From contig NZ_JAFIMU010000010.1 in the NCBI RefSeq assembly GCF_017302985.1, forward strand, positions 1-64,000: a stretch of 64,000 bases of DNA, in the 5' to 3' direction. This stretch comes from Corallococcus macrosporus. GTDB taxonomy: Bacteria > Myxococcota > Myxococcia > Myxococcales > Myxococcaceae. Made by a program: the position numbers and the translations under genes. The notes beneath the pieces were generated by a model, which saw only the letters and a list, made by a program, of their open reading frames with translations, ran no database searches and had not been told where the DNA came from. Of this stretch, positions 41,743-49,228 are shown in pieces (positions within the stretch are counted from its first letter, which is position 1; each line of letters starts with the position of its first letter).

Positions 41743-42267
41743 CTACGAGGCCGAACCCACCGGGATGATCCACTGCAACCCGGTGAAGAGCTCGGTGTCC
41801 GCGCGCAGTCCGGAGCCGAACCCGAACGTGAAGCCGAGCCCGCCGTACAGCGCGAAATGATCCAAGAGGGTGTGTCTGGCGCCGAACCCTAAGCGAGGCC
41901 CCAGCCACGGCCCAGAAATCGGCCGCACGGAAACGCCGAGATCAAAGAAGGTCCGCCACGACTCGGATCCGAAGACGCTGCGGTAACCGGTGATCAGCGC
42001 CAGCTCCTCCCCCGGGCGGCCGGTGCTGCCGCGCGCGAGGAGGAACACCTCATTCCCCTCGTAGCCGACGGTGAGCGCGGCCCCCAGGTCCAGGTGCCCG
42101 GCGAGCCCGGACACGGCGGAGGTGCCGCTGATCCGTTCGGTGTACGTGGCCCCGGGCCCCACGGTGAGGATCAGCGAGCGCTGGCGCGCGTAGGGCCCGT
42201 CGTCCACGAACTCCGCCGCGGCGGCGGGGGCGGCCGCGAGGATCAGGACGGCCGGGAGCCCCTTCAC
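41743..42267 (-). CDS. Predicted outer-membrane beta-barrel protein
   Basis: 174 residues from a GTG that overlaps the larE stop (GTGA). Signal peptide (PAVLILAAAPAAAA), then strand-like blocks (LDLGAALTVGYEGNEVFLLA; FALYGGLGFTFGFGSGLRA). Small barrel, about eight strands. Co-translated with larE; the connection between them is unclear. Confidence 0.7.
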   Translation of the reverse strand: MKGLPAVLILAAAPAAAAEFVDDGPYARQRSLILTVGPGATYTERISGTSAVSGLAGHLDLGAALTVGYEGNEVFLLARGSTGRPGEELALITGYRSVFGSESWRTFFDLGVSVRPISGPWLGPRLGFGARHTLLDHFALYGGLGFTFGFGSGLRADTELFTGLQWIIPVGSAS

Positions 42268-43172
42268 CCCACCACCGGGAGCTTGAAGCCCTCGGCGGGT
42301 CCCTTCCCCTGCCCTGCCCCGGCCGCGGGGGTGATGCCGGCGGCCTCGTTGAGGCGGCCCGAGCGGAAGGGCTCCAGGTCCAGGGCCACGAACTTGAAGC
42401 CCAGGGACTTGAAGGCGCCGTTGATCCGCTCGCGGATGCCGGCCTCGAAGAAGCGCGGGTACTCCTCGCTGGCCAGCTCGATGCGCGCCACGTCCTGGTG
42501 GTAGCGCACGCGGAACTGCTTGAACTCCAGGGCGCGCAGCTCCGACTCCGCGGCGGCGATCTGCAGCAGCCGGTCGCGCGTCACGGACGTGCCGTAGGGG
42601 ATGCGCGACGCCAGGCACGCCATCTGCGGCTTGTCCCAGGTGGGCAGCCCCAGCTTGCGGCTCCACGCGCGGATCTCATCCTTGGTGAGCCCCGCCTGGG
42701 CCAGGGGGGACGACACCTGGTGCTCCTTCGCGGCCTTGTGGCCGGGGCGGTGATCCTTGAAGTCGTCCGCGTTGAAGCCGTCCAGCACCACGGCGAGCCC
42801 CAGCTCCGCGCGCTTCGCCTCGCAGAGGTCGTACAGCTCCGTCTTGCAGAAGTAGCAGCGGTTGGTGGGGTTGGCGGCGTAGTTGGGGTTCGCCAGCTCG
42901 TTGCTGGAGACGACGACGTGGCGGGCGCCCAGGCGGTCCGCCAGCTCACGGGCCTCGCGCTCCTCCTCCGGGGCCACGGAGGCCGACAGCGCGGTGAGCG
43001 CCAGGGCGCGCTCGCCCAGCACCTCCGCAGCGATGGCGAGGACGAAAGTGGAGTCCACGCCGCCGGAGAACGCCACCAGCGCACTGCCGTGGGCGCGCAG
43101 GGCTTCGCGCATCGCCTCCAGCTTGGGGCGGGACGCTTCACACAGGGCTTCAATCCGCTCGGGGCTCAGCAT
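42264..43172 (-). CDS. larE: LarE-type ATP-dependent sulfur transferase
   Basis: 302 residues; AGGAG is well placed. PP-loop SGGVDST, then CYFC (NRCYFCKTELYDLC) and ACLASR. The CxxC plus the later Cys is the three-Cys pattern that binds a 4Fe-4S cluster in some LarE proteins, as opposed to the single-Cys sacrificial type. LarE donates sulfur in nickel-pincer cofactor synthesis, but no larB, larC or larA is in the window, so another sulfuration target is possible. Its neighbour is an APS-kinase-like gene and then the CysO-type cluster. Confidence 0.9.
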   Translation of the reverse strand: MLSPERIEALCEASRPKLEAMREALRAHGSALVAFSGGVDSTFVLAIAAEVLGERALALTALSASVAPEEEREARELADRLGARHVVVSSNELANPNYAANPTNRCYFCKTELYDLCEAKRAELGLAVVLDGFNADDFKDHRPGHKAAKEHQVSSPLAQAGLTKDEIRAWSRKLGLPTWDKPQMACLASRIPYGTSVTRDRLLQIAAAESELRALEFKQFRVRYHQDVARIELASEEYPRFFEAGIRERINGAFKSLGFKFVALDLEPFRSGRLNEAAGITPAAGAGQGKGPAEGFKLPVVG

Positions 43173-43264: not shown

Positions 43265-44038
43265 CTAGCGGGCCTTGCCCTTCACGGCCTTCTTCTTCGC
43301 GGCGGCGGGGGCCGGCTTGCCCACGCGGGCGGCGCGGGTGGCCGGACGCGCCTTGGCGCCCTTGGAGCCCTTGTCCGCCTTGGGCGTCTTCGCGGCCTTC
43401 ACGGCGGCGACCCGGGCGGGGGCCTCCTCCTCGTCGCGGCGGGCCTTCTTGGCCGGCAGCGGGTTGGCCTTCATCTTCTTGCCGGTGATGATCTTCAGCT
43501 CGTCCGTCGTCATCAGGCCCAGGTCCAGCAGCGCCTGGAAGATCTTCGTGCCGCCGTCCTCCACCGACTCCGTGTCGGAGTAGATGGTCACCTCGGGAGA
43601 GGTGGGCGGCTCGTAGGGCTCCGTGATGCCGATGAAGTTCGGGATCTCGCCGTTGAGCGCCTTCTTGTACTTGCCCGTGGTGTCGCGCTCGATGAGCTTC
43701 TCCGTGGGGCAGTCGACGTAGACCTCCACGTACTTGCCCACCGAGCGGCGCACTTCCTCACGGCTCGACTTGTAGGGGCTCACGCAGGGGACGAGCACCG
43801 CCGTGCCGTTGCGGGCCAGGAGGCCGGCGACGAAGCCCAGGCGGCGCACCACCATGTTGCGCTCGTCCTTGGTGTCGCCGATGCCGGCCCACAGGTCGTT
43901 CTGGAGTTCACCCTCATCGAGGACCTCCACGTTGCGTCCGACCTGCCGGAGGCGCGCCGCGATGTAGGCGGCCGTCGTGCTCTTCCCGGTCCCGGACATG
44001 CCGGTCAGCCAGAGGGTGAAACCAGTGTTGGGGGCCAT
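43265..44038 (-). CDS. cysC: Adenylylsulfate (APS) kinase-like protein with Lys/Ala-rich tail
   Basis: 257 residues. P-loop WLTGMSGTGKSTTAAYIA and the CysC-type lower half (ERDTTGKYKKALNGEIPNFI; GITEPYEPP) are clear. The family motif DGDxxR is replaced by DEGELQ, so APS phosphorylation should not be assumed. About 65 residues of Lys/Ala-rich, basic tail (AAKTPKADKGSKGAK) are extra to the family. No CysD/CysN partner lies nearby. Probably a CysC-family kinase, exact substrate unproven. Confidence 0.85.
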   Translation of the reverse strand: MAPNTGFTLWLTGMSGTGKSTTAAYIAARLRQVGRNVEVLDEGELQNDLWAGIGDTKDERNMVVRRLGFVAGLLARNGTAVLVPCVSPYKSSREEVRRSVGKYVEVYVDCPTEKLIERDTTGKYKKALNGEIPNFIGITEPYEPPTSPEVTIYSDTESVEDGGTKIFQALLDLGLMTTDELKIITGKKMKANPLPAKKARRDEEEAPARVAAVKAAKTPKADKGSKGAKARPATRAARVGKPAPAAAKKKAVKGKAR

Positions 44039-44195: not shown

Positions 44196-44684
44196 TTACA
44201 CGGGTTTTTCAAACCTGAAATCCGCCAATGGAAGCGGAACAGTCTGAAAACCCCCCGTGCTCCAAACCGACTGGGAGGCGGAGGCAGCCCTGCCTCCGCA
44301 TATGGCGACTACGATATATGACACCTGAGGCAGGAGCGCGATTCCCGACGGGGCGGCTTGGCGTCGATCTTCGCTGGAGAACACTGCGGGCGTGTCCACA
44401 TGCGAGTGGAAGACACTGACCACCGCCTCCTGTCGCAGGTCCGCGTCCAGGCACACCTGGAGCCACGCCTCCGGCGCGAAGGCATAGGCGACACGGGGCG
44501 TGGGGGAGACGTTGGGCAGGGGAACGACCCGCCAGGAGTCCCCCTCCCCCACCCCGCTCCGGAGGATCACGCCGCAGCCCTCGTGGGGCCACGCGGCCTC
44601 CAGGTGGCGGATCATCCCGGCGAGGACTTCCGGGGGGACGTCGCGGATCAGGGCTTCGCTTCCGCCGCCGCGCAGCGCGAGCAC
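44196..44684 (-). CDS. JAMM/Mov34 metalloprotease, Mec-like
   Basis: About 162 residues. The GTG at 44684 has GGAG eight bases upstream and overlaps the degenerate E1 gene by 37 bases; the next ATG is 44615. The JAMM zinc motif is complete: EGCG with the catalytic Glu, HSHVDTPAVFSSED giving His-x-His and Ser-x-x-Asp. Related actinobacterial Mec (Rv1334) cleaves cysteine from the CysO carrier, and here a CysO-like carrier is encoded two genes upstream. Probable role: release of a sulfur product from that carrier. Confidence 0.88.
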   Translation of the reverse strand: MLALRGGGSEALIRDVPPEVLAGMIRHLEAAWPHEGCGVILRSGVGEGDSWRVVPLPNVSPTPRVAYAFAPEAWLQVCLDADLRQEAVVSVFHSHVDTPAVFSSEDRRQAAPSGIALLPQVSYIVVAICGGRAASASQSVWSTGGFQTVPLPLADFRFEKPV

Positions 44685-45280
44685 CGGCGCGGCTCCAGGT
44701 CCGTCATCGCGCCCGGCGCGCTCAACCACCGGCCGCCCAGCGCCGGGCCCATCCCCAGCCGCAGCCGCTGGAACACCAGCGCGCCCAGGGCGCCCAGGGC
44801 CACGCCCATGGCCCCGTCCGGCGGCGTGCCCAGGTGGCGCACCGTCTCCCCGAAGCACCAGACGCAGCCGTCCCTGCCCCGGAAAACCACTGCGCCGCGC
44901 ACGCCGTCACCGCCCAGCGCGACCCAGGGGGCCTCGCCGCTCCAGGCCGCCGGCAGCTCCGCGAGCAGCCCGCCGCCGGACGTGCCCACCGCGTCCGGGT
45001 TCACCTCCGGAATCACGCGCGCCAGCACCTCCGCCACGGGCTGGCCCACGTCCTGGGCCGACGCGAGGAACCCCGGCGACCAGGGCCCCATGGTCAAGGA
45101 GCCCACGCCCGTCACCGGGGTGCCGCCGCCGGCCAGGTACGCCGTGGCGGTGAGGCCGGACGCGCCCAGCCCGTCCACGCGTGCGCCGCCCGACAGCAGG
45201 GCCTCCTGGCCGCGCCCGCCCACGTCCCGCAGGAGGATCTGCCGGGAGTAGCGGAGAATCTGATCCTCGCGCAGCGCCAT
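44648..45280 (-). CDS. Degenerate ThiF/MoeB-like (E1-like) protein
   Basis: 210 residues; GAGGAG lies before the ATG. The start LREDQILRYSRQILLRDVGG is clearly MoeB/ThiF-like, and GLGASG is a relic of the nucleotide glycine motif. The Asp/Arg ATP-binding block and the catalytic Cys loop found in the true E1 nearby are missing, and the region after it is short. Two zinc-type Cys pairs persist (CVWC; CSRC). It is too well kept as an ORF to be a pseudogene, so it is probably a scaffold or accessory subunit. It sits between the CysO-like carrier and the JAMM protease. Confidence 0.8.
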   Translation of the reverse strand: MALREDQILRYSRQILLRDVGGRGQEALLSGGARVDGLGASGLTATAYLAGGGTPVTGVGSLTMGPWSPGFLASAQDVGQPVAEVLARVIPEVNPDAVGTSGGGLLAELPAAWSGEAPWVALGGDGVRGAVVFRGRDGCVWCFGETVRHLGTPPDGAMGVALGALGALVFQRLRLGMGPALGGRWLSAPGAMTDLEPRRCSRCAAAEAKP

Positions 45281-45290
45281 GACGCTCCTC

Positions 45291-45563
45291 TCAGCCCCCC
45301 GCCATGGCCGGGATGAGGGTGATGCGGTCCGCGTCCTTCACCGGCGTGTCCAGGGCGTTGAGCGCGCGCACGTCCTCCTCGTTGAGGAAGATGTTCACGT
45401 ACCGGCGCACGGTGCCCTTGTCGTCGAAGAGGCGCGCGCCCATGCCGGGGTAGCGCGCGTCCAGGTCGCGCAGCACCTCGCCCACGGTGGCGCCGGTGGC
45501 CTGGACCTCGGCCTGGTTGCGCGTGAGCGTGCGCATGGGTGTCGGAATGCGAATGGTGGCCAT
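45291..45563 (-). CDS. CysO-like/MoaD-family ubiquitin-like sulfur carrier
   Basis: 90 residues, complete and of family length, ending in the free di-Gly tail (LIPAMAGG). MATIRIPTPMR, GATVGEVLRDLDARYPGM and RRYVNIFLNEEDVR are very like CysO of actinobacteria, more so than MoaD of molybdopterin synthase. The carrier would be adenylated by an E1, thiocarboxylated, and used as a sulfur donor, probably for cysteine synthesis. Separated by 3 bases from tusA and 10 bases from the degenerate E1. Confidence 0.9.
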   Translation of the reverse strand: MATIRIPTPMRTLTRNQAEVQATGATVGEVLRDLDARYPGMGARLFDDKGTVRRYVNIFLNEEDVRALNALDTPVKDADRITLIPAMAGG

Positions 45564-45566
45564 GGT

Positions 45567-45806
45567 TCATTTCCCCCGCTTGCGGATGATCAACCGGTGC
45601 GTGCCGTCCCCGCGCGGATCCAGGGACACCACGTCGTGGCCCTCATCCTTCGCGCTGCGGGGCACGTTCTTCAAGGGTTCATCGCCCTTGAGCAGCACCT
45701 CCAGCAGCGAGTCCGCGGGCAGCGACTCCAGCTTCAGCTTGGTGCGCACGTAGGTCATCGGACACACCTCGCGGGTGATGTCCAACGTCGCCGTCACGTC
45801 GGGCAT
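45567..45806 (-). CDS. TusA-family sulfur-transfer protein
   Basis: 79 residues; GAGGA precedes the ATG. N-terminal strand LDITREVCPMTYVRTKLKLE holds the conserved active-site Cys of TusA/SirA-type proteins, with CPMT in place of the classical CPxP. Carries persulfide sulfur between proteins. Overlaps the E1 gene by 13 bases. Confidence 0.9.
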   Translation of the reverse strand: MPDVTATLDITREVCPMTYVRTKLKLESLPADSLLEVLLKGDEPLKNVPRSAKDEGHDVVSLDPRGDGTHRLIIRKRGK

Positions 45807-46570
45807 GCGGTGTCCTCCTGGGACGAGGGGAACGGGGGCAGCGTCTGGATGTTGCACCCCGGGCAGCCGGGCGCGCGCGTCACCTTCACCGTGCGCCCCT
45901 CCAGCGTCTCGCCGTCGAGCACGTGCAGCGTGGCCTGACCCCGCGGCCCCGTCGCCGCGCCCGCCAGCAGCTCCAGCGCGAGCAGCGCCTGCACCGCGCC
46001 GATGAGCCCCGCCATCGCGCCCAGCACGCCCGCCTGCGCGCAGGTGGGCACCGCGTCCGGGGGCGGCACGTCCTCGTAGAGGCAGCGCAGGCACGGCCCG
46101 CCGGGGTCGATGCGCAGGGCCTGGCCGTTCATGCGCAGCACGCCGCCGTACACCAGCGGCACGCCGGTGAGCACCGCCACGTCCGACAGGAAGAACTTGG
46201 TGGCCACGCCGTCCGTCGCGTCCACCACCAGGTCGTGCTCGCGGAAGAGGCCCTCCGCGTTGCCCGCGTCCAGCCGCTCCGGCAGGGCCTCCACGCTCAG
46301 GCCGGGGAAGGCGCGCAGCAGGCCCGCGGCGGCGGACTCCGCCTTGAAGCGGCCAACGTCCTGGGTGCGGTGCCAGAGCTGCCGGGGCAGGTTCGTCACG
46401 TCCACCCGGTCCGGATCCACCAGCGTCAGGTGGCCCACTCCGCCCTGCGCCAGCGCGAGCGACGCCGGACAGCCCAGGCCGCCTGCCCCCACTACCAGCA
46501 CCCGCGCGCGCTCGATGCGGGTGGCGTGGGGAATGCGCGCGTGGTGGTCGGTATCCGGCGAACCGTGCAT
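45794..46570 (-). CDS. moeB: MoeB/ThiF-type E1 adenylyltransferase
   Basis: 258 residues. All E1 features are visible: VLVVGAGGLGCPASLALAQGG, LVDPDRVDVTNLPRQ, the Arg-containing HRTQDVGRFKA, and VPTCAQAGVLGAMAGLIG with the catalytic Cys, plus two zinc Cys pairs (CLRC; CPGC). Predicted to adenylate the C-terminal Gly of the adjacent CysO-like carrier. The first gene of the minus-strand cluster, divergent from a small lipoprotein gene. The rhodanese domain of MoeZ is absent, so the TusA-like gene may fill that role. Confidence 0.92.
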   Translation of the reverse strand: MHGSPDTDHHARIPHATRIERARVLVVGAGGLGCPASLALAQGGVGHLTLVDPDRVDVTNLPRQLWHRTQDVGRFKAESAAAGLLRAFPGLSVEALPERLDAGNAEGLFREHDLVVDATDGVATKFFLSDVAVLTGVPLVYGGVLRMNGQALRIDPGGPCLRCLYEDVPPPDAVPTCAQAGVLGAMAGLIGAVQALLALELLAGAATGPRGQATLHVLDGETLEGRTVKVTRAPGCPGCNIQTLPPFPSSQEDTACPT

Positions 46571-47182: not shown

Positions 47183-48466
47183 ATGGACAGCGACCTCCGA
47201 CCCGGCGACGACCACCCGGCCCATGACCTGAAGGCCCGCGTCCGCGCCGTGCTGGAGCGCCGCAACCTCACGGACAACGTGTCCGCGGAGCAGGCGGCGG
47301 CCTCCTGGGAGCAGGACCGCTTCGTCGCCCGGGCCCGCGCGCTGTTCTACGCGCGGATGATGTTCCTCACGTTGGGCCTGCTCATCCTCGCGGTGCCCGC
47401 GTGGAGCGGCTACTTCGGCTTCAACGGGCCCATCTCCTTCCTGGGCTACTTCGCGATGCTCATCTACAGCGTCGCGAACCTGCTCGTCATCGACCACCCG
47501 AAGGCCGGCCGGTGGGTGACGTACCTGTCGCTCTGCTTCGACCTGCTGATCACCGTGGTGCTCATCGCGCGTCCGCAGGTGGGCGGCGGCCTCCAGAGTC
47601 CACTGCTGGCGACGCAGCTCTTGTTCACCACGCTCTTCGCCATCCTCTTCCCCAAGCCGCTGGCCATCCTGCCGCCGCTCCTGGCGCTGCCCATCACCAC
47701 GCGCCTGGACCTGCTCCTCAACCGCTCCGTGACGGCGGTGGAGCTGCTCACGCTGCTCTGGTACCTGGGACTCAACTTCATCATCGTCTACGTGCTCGTG
47801 TACCTGAACGAGCGCGAGGCCACCGCGCACCGCGAGGTGGTGTCCCTGCAGGGCGACCTGAAGGAGCTGGCGGTGGTGGAGGAGCGCAACCGGCTGGCGC
47901 GCGAAATCCACGACGGCCTGGGCGCGTCGCTGTCCTCCATGATCATCCAGGCGGAGTACATCCTGAACCTCGCGCGCGAGGACGGGCTGCGCACGGAGAT
48001 CCGCGAGATGAAGGCCACCGCGGAGGAGTCCATTGAAGAGCTGCGCCGCAACCTGCGGATGATGCGCGACGACTTCGAGCTGGCGCAGGGTCTGGAGGAC
48101 TACGTCAAGACGTTCCGCGAGCGCACCGGGCAGGACATCCGCTTCGAGCGCACGGGCCTGACGCGCAAGCTGCCCCCGGACGCGCAGCTGGCGCTGTTCC
48201 GCATCCTCCAGGAGTGCCTGTCCAACGCCGCGAAGCACGCCGAGGCGAAGGAGGTCCAGGTGCGCCTGGACTTCAGCGCGGAGGGCGTGCACCTGGTGGT
48301 CCGCGACAACGGCAAGGGCTTCGACCCGGGCCGCACGCCGCGCGGCCACTACGGCCTGCTCAACATGCGTGAGCGGGCCATGAAGCTCGGGGGTTCCATC
48401 GTGGTGGACTCGGCGCCCGGCGCTGGGGCCCAGGTGGCCTTCTCCCTTCCCTGTCTTTCCGCCTGA
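47183..48466 (+). CDS. NarL-family sensor histidine kinase
   Basis: 427 residues. Five to six hydrophobic segments (residues about 60-210; MFLTLGLLILAVPAWSGYFG, LLWYLGLNFIIVYVLVYL) form a membrane sensor. The HisKA_3 site is EIHDGLGASLSSMI, and the ATPase domain has NAAKHAEAKEVQV (N box) and DNGKGFDPG (G1). No extracytoplasmic domain of note, so the stimulus may be sensed in the membrane. The response regulator starts 22 bases downstream. Confidence 0.93.
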   Translation: MDSDLRPGDDHPAHDLKARVRAVLERRNLTDNVSAEQAAASWEQDRFVARARALFYARMMFLTLGLLILAVPAWSGYFGFNGPISFLGYFAMLIYSVANLLVIDHPKAGRWVTYLSLCFDLLITVVLIARPQVGGGLQSPLLATQLLFTTLFAILFPKPLAILPPLLALPITTRLDLLLNRSVTAVELLTLLWYLGLNFIIVYVLVYLNEREATAHREVVSLQGDLKELAVVEERNRLAREIHDGLGASLSSMIIQAEYILNLAREDGLRTEIREMKATAEESIEELRRNLRMMRDDFELAQGLEDYVKTFRERTGQDIRFERTGLTRKLPPDAQLALFRILQECLSNAAKHAEAKEVQVRLDFSAEGVHLVVRDNGKGFDPGRTPRGHYGLLNMRERAMKLGGSIVVDSAPGAGAQVAFSLPCLSA

Positions 48467-48487
48467 CACGCACCGGAGATCCGCCCC

Positions 48488-49228
48488 GTGGACCCGACTT
48501 CCAGCGCCGCCCCCCTCCCCATCCGCGTGTTCGTCGTGGAGGACCAGACCAAGATCCTGAAGAACCAGCTGCGCCTCTTCGAGGGCCACCCGGACATCGA
48601 CATCGTGGGCACCGCGCTGTCCGGCGAAGCCGCGTTGGCGGAGGTGGAGCGCGATCAACCGGACGTGATGCTGCTGGACCTGGGGCTGCCGCGCATGAGC
48701 GGCATCGACGTGACGCGCGAGGTGAAGGCGCGCTTCCCGAAGGTGGAGATCCTGATCTTCACCATCTTCGACGAGGAGGACAAAGTCCTCGAAGCCGTGA
48801 AGGCGGGCGCGTCCGGCTACCTGCTCAAGGGCGCGACGGTGGACAAGATCGTCGAGGCCATCAAGGAGGTGCGCGCGGGCGGCACGGTCATCCAGCCGAA
48901 CCTCGCGCGGCGCCTGTTGCGCCACTTCCGCGTGGAGCCGGACACCGCGCCCGTGCCCACCGAGCCGCTGCCCGTGACGCCGTCCGCCGCGGAGGCCGCC
49001 GCGGATGCGTCCGCGCGCGAGCCGCTGCTCAAGCCGCTGTCGGACCGCGAGCGCGAAATCCTGCAGCTCATCGCCAAGGGCGTGTCCAACAGCGAGGCGG
49101 CCCGGCTGCTGTCGCTCTCCAAGGCGACCATCCGCACGCACCTGGAGCACATCTACCGGAAACTCGAGGTGACGAACCGCGTGGAGGCCGTCACCGAGGG
49201 CATCCGCAAGGGCCTCATCTCCGTCTAG
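48488..49228 (+). CDS. NarL/LuxR-family response regulator
   Basis: 246 residues from a GTG. Receiver with phospho-acceptor Asp in DVMLLDLGLP, followed by SGYLLKGATVDKIVEAI. A linker of about 40 residues (Pro/Ala-rich) leads to a LuxR-type HTH (LSDREREILQLIAKGVSNSE; TIRTHLEHIYRKLEV). Partner of the preceding kinase. Target genes cannot be named from the sequence, although the formaldehyde operon follows directly. Confidence 0.94.
   Translation: MDPTSSAAPLPIRVFVVEDQTKILKNQLRLFEGHPDIDIVGTALSGEAALAEVERDQPDVMLLDLGLPRMSGIDVTREVKARFPKVEILIFTIFDEEDKVLEAVKAGASGYLLKGATVDKIVEAIKEVRAGGTVIQPNLARRLLRHFRVEPDTAPVPTEPLPVTPSAAEAAADASAREPLLKPLSDREREILQLIAKGVSNSEAARLLSLSKATIRTHLEHIYRKLEVTNRVEAVTEGIRKGLISV

Follow-up and report, generated by a model that had tools for sequence, protein, structure and literature searches.

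A predicted split E1, composed of a truncated E1-like protein and an inactive finger-bearing partner, in a myxobacterial sulfur-carrier operon

Why should an operon for a ubiquitin-like sulfur carrier encode two E1-like proteins, one of them apparently dead? The question is raised by a gene block of the myxobacterium Corallococcus macrosporus, located on a 64,000 nt stretch of DNA (contig NZ_JAFIMU010000010.1 of assembly GCF_017302985.1, positions 1 to 64,000) that we refer to as the window. An initial annotation had described five tightly packed genes between positions 44196 and 46570, encoding an E1, a TusA-like protein, a CysO-like carrier ending in Gly-Gly, a degenerate E1 (dE1) and a JAMM protease with an intact zinc motif. 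Our analysis upheld this description: all five reading frames (5/5) are intact, lie on the minus strand and are separated by small gaps or overlaps, and the profile matches agree with the names given (Table 1). Two E1-like proteins are indeed present and the second is degenerate, but it had been missed that the two, judged by their residues, are complementary halves, one with the arginine finger and the other with the ATP site. We consider it likely that the E1 is split, that is, that the truncated E1 and the inactive, finger-bearing dE1 form an obligate asymmetric heterodimer which loads the CysO-like carrier with sulfur from TusA. This heterodimer is what we infer from sequence facts that are themselves strong.

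The roles assigned here to residues of E1 and dE1 are those that we take the equivalent MoeB residues to have, an assumption that the literature supports in part. Passages of PMC12355090 support some of these roles through MoeB Gly41, Arg73, Lys86 and Asp130, and MoeB Arg14 is described as the arginine finger in passages of PMC13139853. The window E1 has a complete ATP/Mg site, the catalytic Cys and two CxxC pairs but is without the finger segment, and its match to the ThiF profile begins only at profile position 16. When the frames upstream of the GxGGxG glycine loop were read irrespective of the start codon, the R-Y-x-R-Q segment was absent from the cluster E1s; the sole match to this pattern upstream of a cluster E1, in locus L054, lies ahead of its likely GTG start. 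The window dE1 has the finger segment, RYSRQ, and its Arg13 aligns with MoeB Arg14, whereas the equivalents of D62, R73, K86, D130 and the catalytic Cys are lost; its CxxC pairs are kept.

The same division was observed in the homologous proteins. Equivalents of MoeB D62, R73, K86 and D130 were all present in 146 of 146 E1s (99 truncated and 47 full-length), R73 being prescribed by the pattern that chose these E1s and so not independent in this comparison, while 92 of 96 dE1s had none of the four, three had one and one had two. Of the truncated E1s 97 of 99 have the catalytic Cys, as do all 47 full-length E1s; it is present in none of the 96 dE1s, of which 84, 84, 83 and 52, respectively, kept the four cysteines of the CxxC pairs. 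The finger column is uninformative for the E1s, as the truncated sequences had been trimmed to start 8 residues ahead of the glycine loop and the finger itself had defined the full-length E1s. The 96 dE1s had been found by a pattern prescribing the finger; invariance of Arg13 and Gln25 among them was therefore dropped as evidence, since the pattern prescribes both. We used instead a set of 66 dE1s found by similarity to the whole dE1, with no demand for the finger, in 70 loci (L008-L077) chosen in that way; this set does not include L054 and L055, where our script found no start codon, L060, which is cut, and L066, a full E1. Arg13 and Gln25 were present in 64 of these 66 proteins, and residues 1-30 were their most conserved part (mean top-residue frequency 0.74, versus 0.24-0.51 for the other 30-residue blocks; n = 66, effective number 23). 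Selenocysteine had been considered for the internal TGA codons of dE1 in several genomes, and was rejected because the frames show that these codons are the natural ends of dE1.

The two dE1s without the finger, in L046 and L050, belong to genomes G084 and G090 of one genus (g3). In both loci NLxRQ (R73), DATD (D130) and the catalytic Cys are gone from the E1, there is no TusA, and the carrier has stayed intact; finger and ATP site have decayed together. Joint loss was also seen for whole genes. Eight genomes, from genera g10 (G112, G141, G145), g17 (G142, G154, G161) and g3 (G022, G080), keep carrier, JAMM, adenylylsulfate (APS) kinase and LarE genes in order, and no E1, TusA or dE1 was detected in them by tblastn in 12.3 kb. 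Across these whole genomes, dE1 matches reached 1.7e-4 at best (G141 had none), and the best E1 matches, between 1e-34 and 1e-48, were in the range of full-length E1s. Other genomes of these genera (G083; G165, G169, G177; G146, G152, G185) keep the cluster, and, if the genera are sound, E1, TusA and dE1 were lost together at least three times. These losses tie dE1 to E1 and TusA, and not to JAMM. The dE1 can also be very short: it has 210 amino acids (aa) in the window, 128 in L073 and 88 in L115, where LTEEQIARYARQILVVGGKGQ, the finger segment, survives next to short remnants of the other parts. The dE1s of family f2 measure about 230 aa and are nearer to E1. Among the loci we noticed none in which E1 and dE1 are fused.

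An earlier census, in which truncated E1s had been found via dE1 and full-length ones via RYxRQ, was set aside as biased and replaced by a search of 195 genomes of the phylum with the E1 body minus its N-terminus, which matched 181 genomes at 1e-20. The census is based on the best 150 of the E1 places obtained, all of them inside fetched loci; L067, L073, L077, L237 and L240 lie outside these 150, and L238, L241, L246 and L286 are in no count. Our script assigned 95 of the 150 to truncated E1s with dE1 and 47 to full-length E1s lacking it; it called 3 truncated lacking dE1 and 1 full-length with it, and left 4 unclassified. Six rows were then settled by eye; among these, L054 (the "full-length with dE1" of the script) and L055 are truncated with dE1, L046 and L050 are decayed, and L011 is cut by its contig. 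The final tally was 97 truncated E1s accompanied by dE1, 47 full-length E1s that lack it, 3 truncated E1s that lack it, 2 decayed and 1 cut. For two of the three truncated E1s lacking dE1, those of G131 and G190, the locus stops at the edge of its contig, and a dE1 of G131 is on another contig (L057); the third, in G007 (L221), is a genuine exception. A divergent dE1, with RYARQ and GAAQ, is present in L209. The full-length class includes the cluster E1 of G060 (L234), which is accompanied by TusA, carrier, CysM, JAMM, APS kinase and LarE, and not by dE1. Full-length E1s beside TusA also occur in G006 and G021, outside the 150, and five loci of other lineages that were found by the RYxRQ pattern (L150, L166, L168, L197 and L205) have full-length E1, TusA, carrier, CysM and JAMM without dE1.

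Single-chain AlphaFold2 models gave an E1 fold for dE1 (pLDDT 84.5, pTM 0.85) and the same fold for E1 (pLDDT 87.9, pTM 0.87). The structural matches of dE1 were ThiF (VIA Z score 17.1; root-mean-square deviation 3.2; 196 residues aligned), MoeB (16.9; 3.1; 198), SAE1 (16.9; 3.0; 194) and APPBP1 (16.5; 2.8; 183), and those of E1 were ThiF and MoeB (both 30.8; 1.9 and 2.0; 222 and 220), UBA3 (28.9; 2.6; 230) and SAE2 (27.8; 2.7; 224). Each PDB entry is represented by its best chain, and rows within 1 Z count as tied. In entries of the eukaryotic pairs (1y8q, 3kyc, 1r4m, 2nvu and others) the best chain was the inactive one (SAE1 or APPBP1) for dE1 and the active one (SAE2 or UBA3) for E1, these chain identities being our assumption, with which the chain lengths fit.

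If the proposal is correct, E1 and dE1 would pair in the manner of SAE1-SAE2 or APPBP1-UBA3 and would share a single active site, completed in trans by Arg13 of dE1. This heterodimer would adenylate the C-terminal Gly-Gly of the carrier, and persulfide sulfur from TusA, likely the sulfur donor, would convert it into a thiocarboxylate. An acceptor enzyme, CysM in those relatives that keep cysM, would take the thiocarboxylate sulfur, and the JAMM protease would release the product or trim the carrier. APS kinase and LarE would connect the unit to sulfate activation and sulfur transfer.

Several observations weigh against an obligate pair. The strongest is that, according to passages of PMC13139853, the fingers of MoeB and ThiF are non-essential. 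Moreover, loss of the finger need not require a partner, because E. coli TcdA is without a finger. In G007 (L221) a truncated E1 is clustered with carrier, CysM and JAMM, no dE1 was found across 10.6 kb, and a dE1 query matches only the full-length E1 of this genome. The counts are not independent: in a quick tree of 87 E1s truncation takes two changes, and one change is also compatible, so that the census reflects one or two inherited states and not many events. As to the models, homodimeric ThiF and MoeB top the lists of both proteins, SAE1 alone (8vy5_B) matches the E1 model (Z 25.5) better than that of dE1 (15.1), and the alignment behind the dE1 model has 27 rows, 15 of them full-length E1s. 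In addition, dE1 and JAMM are fused in one open frame in L052 and L076, and several of 34 genomes tried have E1, dE1 and JAMM but no CysO match.

The fusions would suit a dE1 that serves JAMM as an adaptor, an inactive E1 whose task would be to bind the carrier and hand it to the protease, with no role in adenylation. So would the 4 nt overlap of the two genes in the window, if JAMM starts at its CTG codon, and the E1 fold retained in the dE1 model could bind the carrier. We nevertheless regard this role as quite unlikely: the eight genomes that lost dE1 along with E1 and TusA keep carrier and JAMM, the best conserved part of dE1 is the very segment that its partner E1 is without, and L067 has E1 and dE1 but no JAMM found nearby by tblastn. 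It seems highly improbable that dE1 is a functionless, decaying duplicate, retained in the operon by chance. Its ATP residues are gone and its unfused length ranges from 88 to over 210 aa, as decay would have it, but Arg13 and Gln25 persist in 64 of 66 dE1s found without demanding them, dE1 was lost jointly with E1, and in the two genomes where the finger is gone the E1 is dead too. A further alternative concerns the product, namely that the carrier is conjugated to proteins, like Urm1 or SAMP, and that JAMM is a deconjugase, instead of a role in cysteine synthesis. The carrier passes the cut-off of the NCBIfam SAMP1 model marginally (60.5 bits versus 60, 0.5 bit over), which leaves protein modification as a possible role; the best NCBIfam model for JAMM is desampylase, far under its cut-off (46.4 of 130 bits), and the catalytic Cys is kept in 97 of 99 truncated E1s. 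Conjugation is unlikely all the same, as there is no E2 among the seven genes of the block, the nearest solved carrier is CysO, and the cysM of relatives together with APS kinase and LarE point to sulfur metabolism.

More serious is the possibility that the split E1 serves other carriers, ThiS or MoaD, for thiamine or molybdopterin, with CysO as a side branch, although we hold this to be doubtful. G094, a single-contig genome of completeness 100, has no proteins over the ThiF cut-off other than E1 and dE1, a third match being below it, and its only ThiS-family protein precedes a thiG-like gene (named by eye). On these grounds the E1-dE1 pair is probably active in G094 and, if thiazole is made in this way there, must load ThiS. 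Some lineages have E1, TusA and dE1 without a CysO match: none was found in G069, G126, G128, G109 and G140 (genera g8, g13 and g16), which have two ThiS-family proteins each, and a truncated E1 with two other ThiF-family proteins over the cut-off. On the other side, the window operon includes CysO, its genome has other ThiF-family proteins, one of them a full-length match, and its two other ThiS-family proteins sit elsewhere. To judge from G094 and the genomes without CysO, several carriers may be served by the pair. Loci L077 and L230, from two genomes of the family that are small (2.3-2.7 Mb), keep E1, dE1, JAMM, APS kinase and LarE; CysO and TusA were not found, and a ThiS-family gene is located about 4 kb from the cluster.

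Returning to the split E1 loading a CysO-like carrier, we consider the identity of that carrier. Its best PDB match is M. tuberculosis CysO (3dwg_C, E 2.7e-20, residues 2-90), and MoaD and SAMP1 entries rank lower. The genome of the window has three ThiS-family proteins: the operon carrier, one immediately next to the sole MoaE on contig C9, and a third on contig C4. The carrier is thus not the partner of MoaE, and its identification as MoaD or MoaD-like, the assignment that would have spoken against a sulfur-carrier operon of the CysO type, was excluded by the CysO match and the other protein adjoining MoaE. The initial annotation had pointed out that no cysM is present. This is correct for the window, where no CysM-type cysteine synthase was found, but not for related genera, which carry cysM inside the same cluster; the absence is therefore local. 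A cysteine synthase is encoded between dE1 and JAMM in L051, L054 and L055, and within clusters L058, L072, L115, L221 and L234 as well. For that of L055 the best NCBIfam model is cysM (322.5 bits, under the cut-off of 394.2). Identity to the L055 cysM is 32-35% for the four cysteine-synthase-like genes in the genome of the window, versus 52-60% for the cluster copies of G004, G078 and G138; cysM is the best NCBIfam model for none of the four, two of which pass a CysK cut-off and two of which pass none. A cysteine pathway like CysO/CysM/Mec is likely the ancestral role of the cluster. The proposed route to protein-bound cysteine or another sulfuration product is thus backed for the ancestral cluster by cysM lying between dE1 and JAMM in relatives, and not for the window, in whose genome a CysM-like copy was not found. 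Altogether, what had been observed at this locus was confirmed and how it had been interpreted is partly supported.

Carrier ends differ between loci. A bare MAGG end is present in 62 of 109 carriers. Those of L051, L055, L058, L221, L234, L166, L168, L172, L178, L183, L197 and L205 have one or two residues after Gly-Gly (GGR, GGAR, GGAL, GGFK and others) and would need trimming; all of them sit in cysM clusters. The rule is not strict, as the carrier stops at GG in the cysM-bearing loci L072 and L115. G022, G080 and G084 have a second CysO-like gene away from the cluster (L117, L119 and L120), with 58-62% identity to the window carrier. G174 has a second system (L124, 3831-6212) in which carrier and full-length E1 form one 550-aa frame adjoined by JAMM and CysM, with no dE1 seen. 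In G007 a regulator of the Rrf2 type (by eye; L221, 6721-7257) adjoins a CysK-like gene and the carrier cluster.

A search for the gene order in other myxobacteria had been suggested, and the block was found across several families of Myxococcota. In the 70 loci L008-L077, of which 30 span no more than 3.3-3.6 kb and stop short of LarE and others are cut by their contigs, tblastn detected E1 in 68, APS kinase in 66, TusA in 62, JAMM in 57, the carrier in 53 and LarE in 35. The association of these genes exceeds chance. The extent originally given to the operon stops two conserved genes early: APS kinase, the next gene, and LarE, the last one, are part of the conserved block (Table 1).

Table 1. 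Genes of the sulfur-carrier block in the window
Feature	Coordinates	Strand	Evidence
E1-like adenylating subunit, N-terminally truncated	45794..46570	-	258 aa; Pfam ThiF E 8.8e-62, profile 16-237 of 238
TusA/SirA-type sulfurtransferase, CPMT cysteine motif	45567..45806	-	79 aa; Pfam TusA E 7.8e-18
CysO-like ubiquitin-fold sulfur carrier, exposed C-terminal Gly-Gly	45291..45563	-	90 aa; C-terminus AMAGG; Pfam ThiS E 6.6e-17
Inactive E1-like partner (dE1)	44648..45280	-	210 aa; Pfam ThiF E 1.8e-5, 24.5 bits (below the cut-off of 28.1)
JAMM/Mec-like metalloprotease	44196..44651	-	Pfam Prok-JAB E 4.6e-19; HSHx7SxxD intact
APS kinase (CysC)	43265..44038	-	NCBIfam TIGR00455 166.1 bits (cut-off 138.7); synteny
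LarE-type sulfur transferase	42264..43172	-	NCBIfam TIGR00268 E 8.9e-95; PDB LarE 5udq E 3.3e-49; synteny

The genes for E1 and TusA overlap by 13 nt, and gaps of 3 and 10 nt separate TusA from the carrier and the carrier from dE1. The start of JAMM is uncertain, being either the CTG at 44651, which gives the overlap with dE1 mentioned above, or an in-frame ATG at 44615. APS kinase follows 157 nt past JAMM, and LarE after a further 92 nt. The metal motif of the window JAMM, HSHVDTPAVFSSED, is complete; the corresponding pattern matched 109 of 111 JAMMs, and inspection by eye showed that those of L048 and L052 also have H, H, S and D, in a different spacing or with HAH. The window LarE has CYFC and a Cys adjacent to where L. 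plantarum LarE has its sacrificial Cys176; we take this as a possible sign of an iron-sulfur type LarE. As LarC is present on another contig of the genome, LarE may serve the nickel-pincer cofactor. Divergent from the operon, at 47183-49228, lie genes that we named by eye as a histidine kinase and a response regulator of the NarL type. They may regulate the operon, because a similar histidine kinase is found at the same place in L077 and L336.

How does this operon relate to known systems? In passages of PMC3227635, the CysO-CysM-Mec cysteine synthesis of M. tuberculosis uses MoeZ as its E1. The two systems share a carrier with C-terminal Gly-Gly and an adjoining JAMM, and related genera have cysM in the cluster. 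They differ in that MoeZ is a rhodanese fusion, whereas here a truncated E1, a finger-bearing inactive partner and TusA are found, and in that the genome of the window is without a CysM-like copy. The type 4e sulfur operons predicted in 2006 by Iyer, Burroughs and Aravind, as described in passages of PMC1779556, comprise a ThiS/MoaD-like carrier, a JAB protein, an E1 without rhodanese, SirA(TusA) and adenylylsulfate kinase. The window block has all parts listed there, including a sulfur assimilation gene (APS kinase), and the addition of TusA is not new since that prediction already included it. An inactive or truncated E1 is not part of type 4e in those passages of PMC1779556, and the words "truncated" and "dimer" are absent from its text; Myxococcus is not named, and Anaeromyxobacter is assigned to type 4b, in which JAB occurs with an E1 that has rhodanese. 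The E1 of the window has a ThiF domain (residues 17-237) as its only Pfam match over the cut-off. In the HcyS-HcyD-HcyF homocysteine pathway of Wolinella succinogenes, carrier, JAMM and E1 act with a sulfhydrylase, so that product and acceptor enzyme differ from those considered here; we know of no inactive E1 in that pathway.

The closest likeness to the two E1-like proteins is in eukaryotes. SAE1-SAE2 and APPBP1-UBA3 also have one active subunit without the finger segment and one inactive homologous subunit with it. Unlike them, the window pair is bacterial, has neither a catalytic-cysteine domain nor a ubiquitin-fold domain (UFD), would act on a sulfur carrier and not on a protein modifier, and is a predicted heterodimer. 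In yeast, according to passages of PMC13139853, the inactive E1-like Tcd1 supplies an arginine finger (Arg59) to Tcd2; this resembles the finger-bearing partner found here, but Tcd1 and Tcd2 are tRNA-modifying enzymes and their finger is dispensable, its mutation having had little effect. No description of a bacterial heterodimeric or split E1 was found in the titles and abstract openings retrieved from open-licence papers. The neighbourhood type (as the type 4e prediction), the CysO-CysM-Mec/MoeZ chemistry and, from yeast, an inactive E1 that lends its finger are already known; the main result here is the split E1. With some reserve we favour the view that an asymmetric heterodimeric E1 that acts on a ubiquitin-like sulfur carrier, with an inactive paralogue as arginine-finger subunit, arose independently in Myxococcota, in parallel to the step that led to SAE1-SAE2 and APPBP1-UBA3. 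If this is true, the annotation "degenerate E1" would have to be corrected to that of a working subunit, and the full-length relatives together with the shrunken 88-aa partner would provide a small natural system for the purpose of an inactive half. It would also mean that subunit asymmetry of E1s can arise outside eukaryotes and without protein modification.

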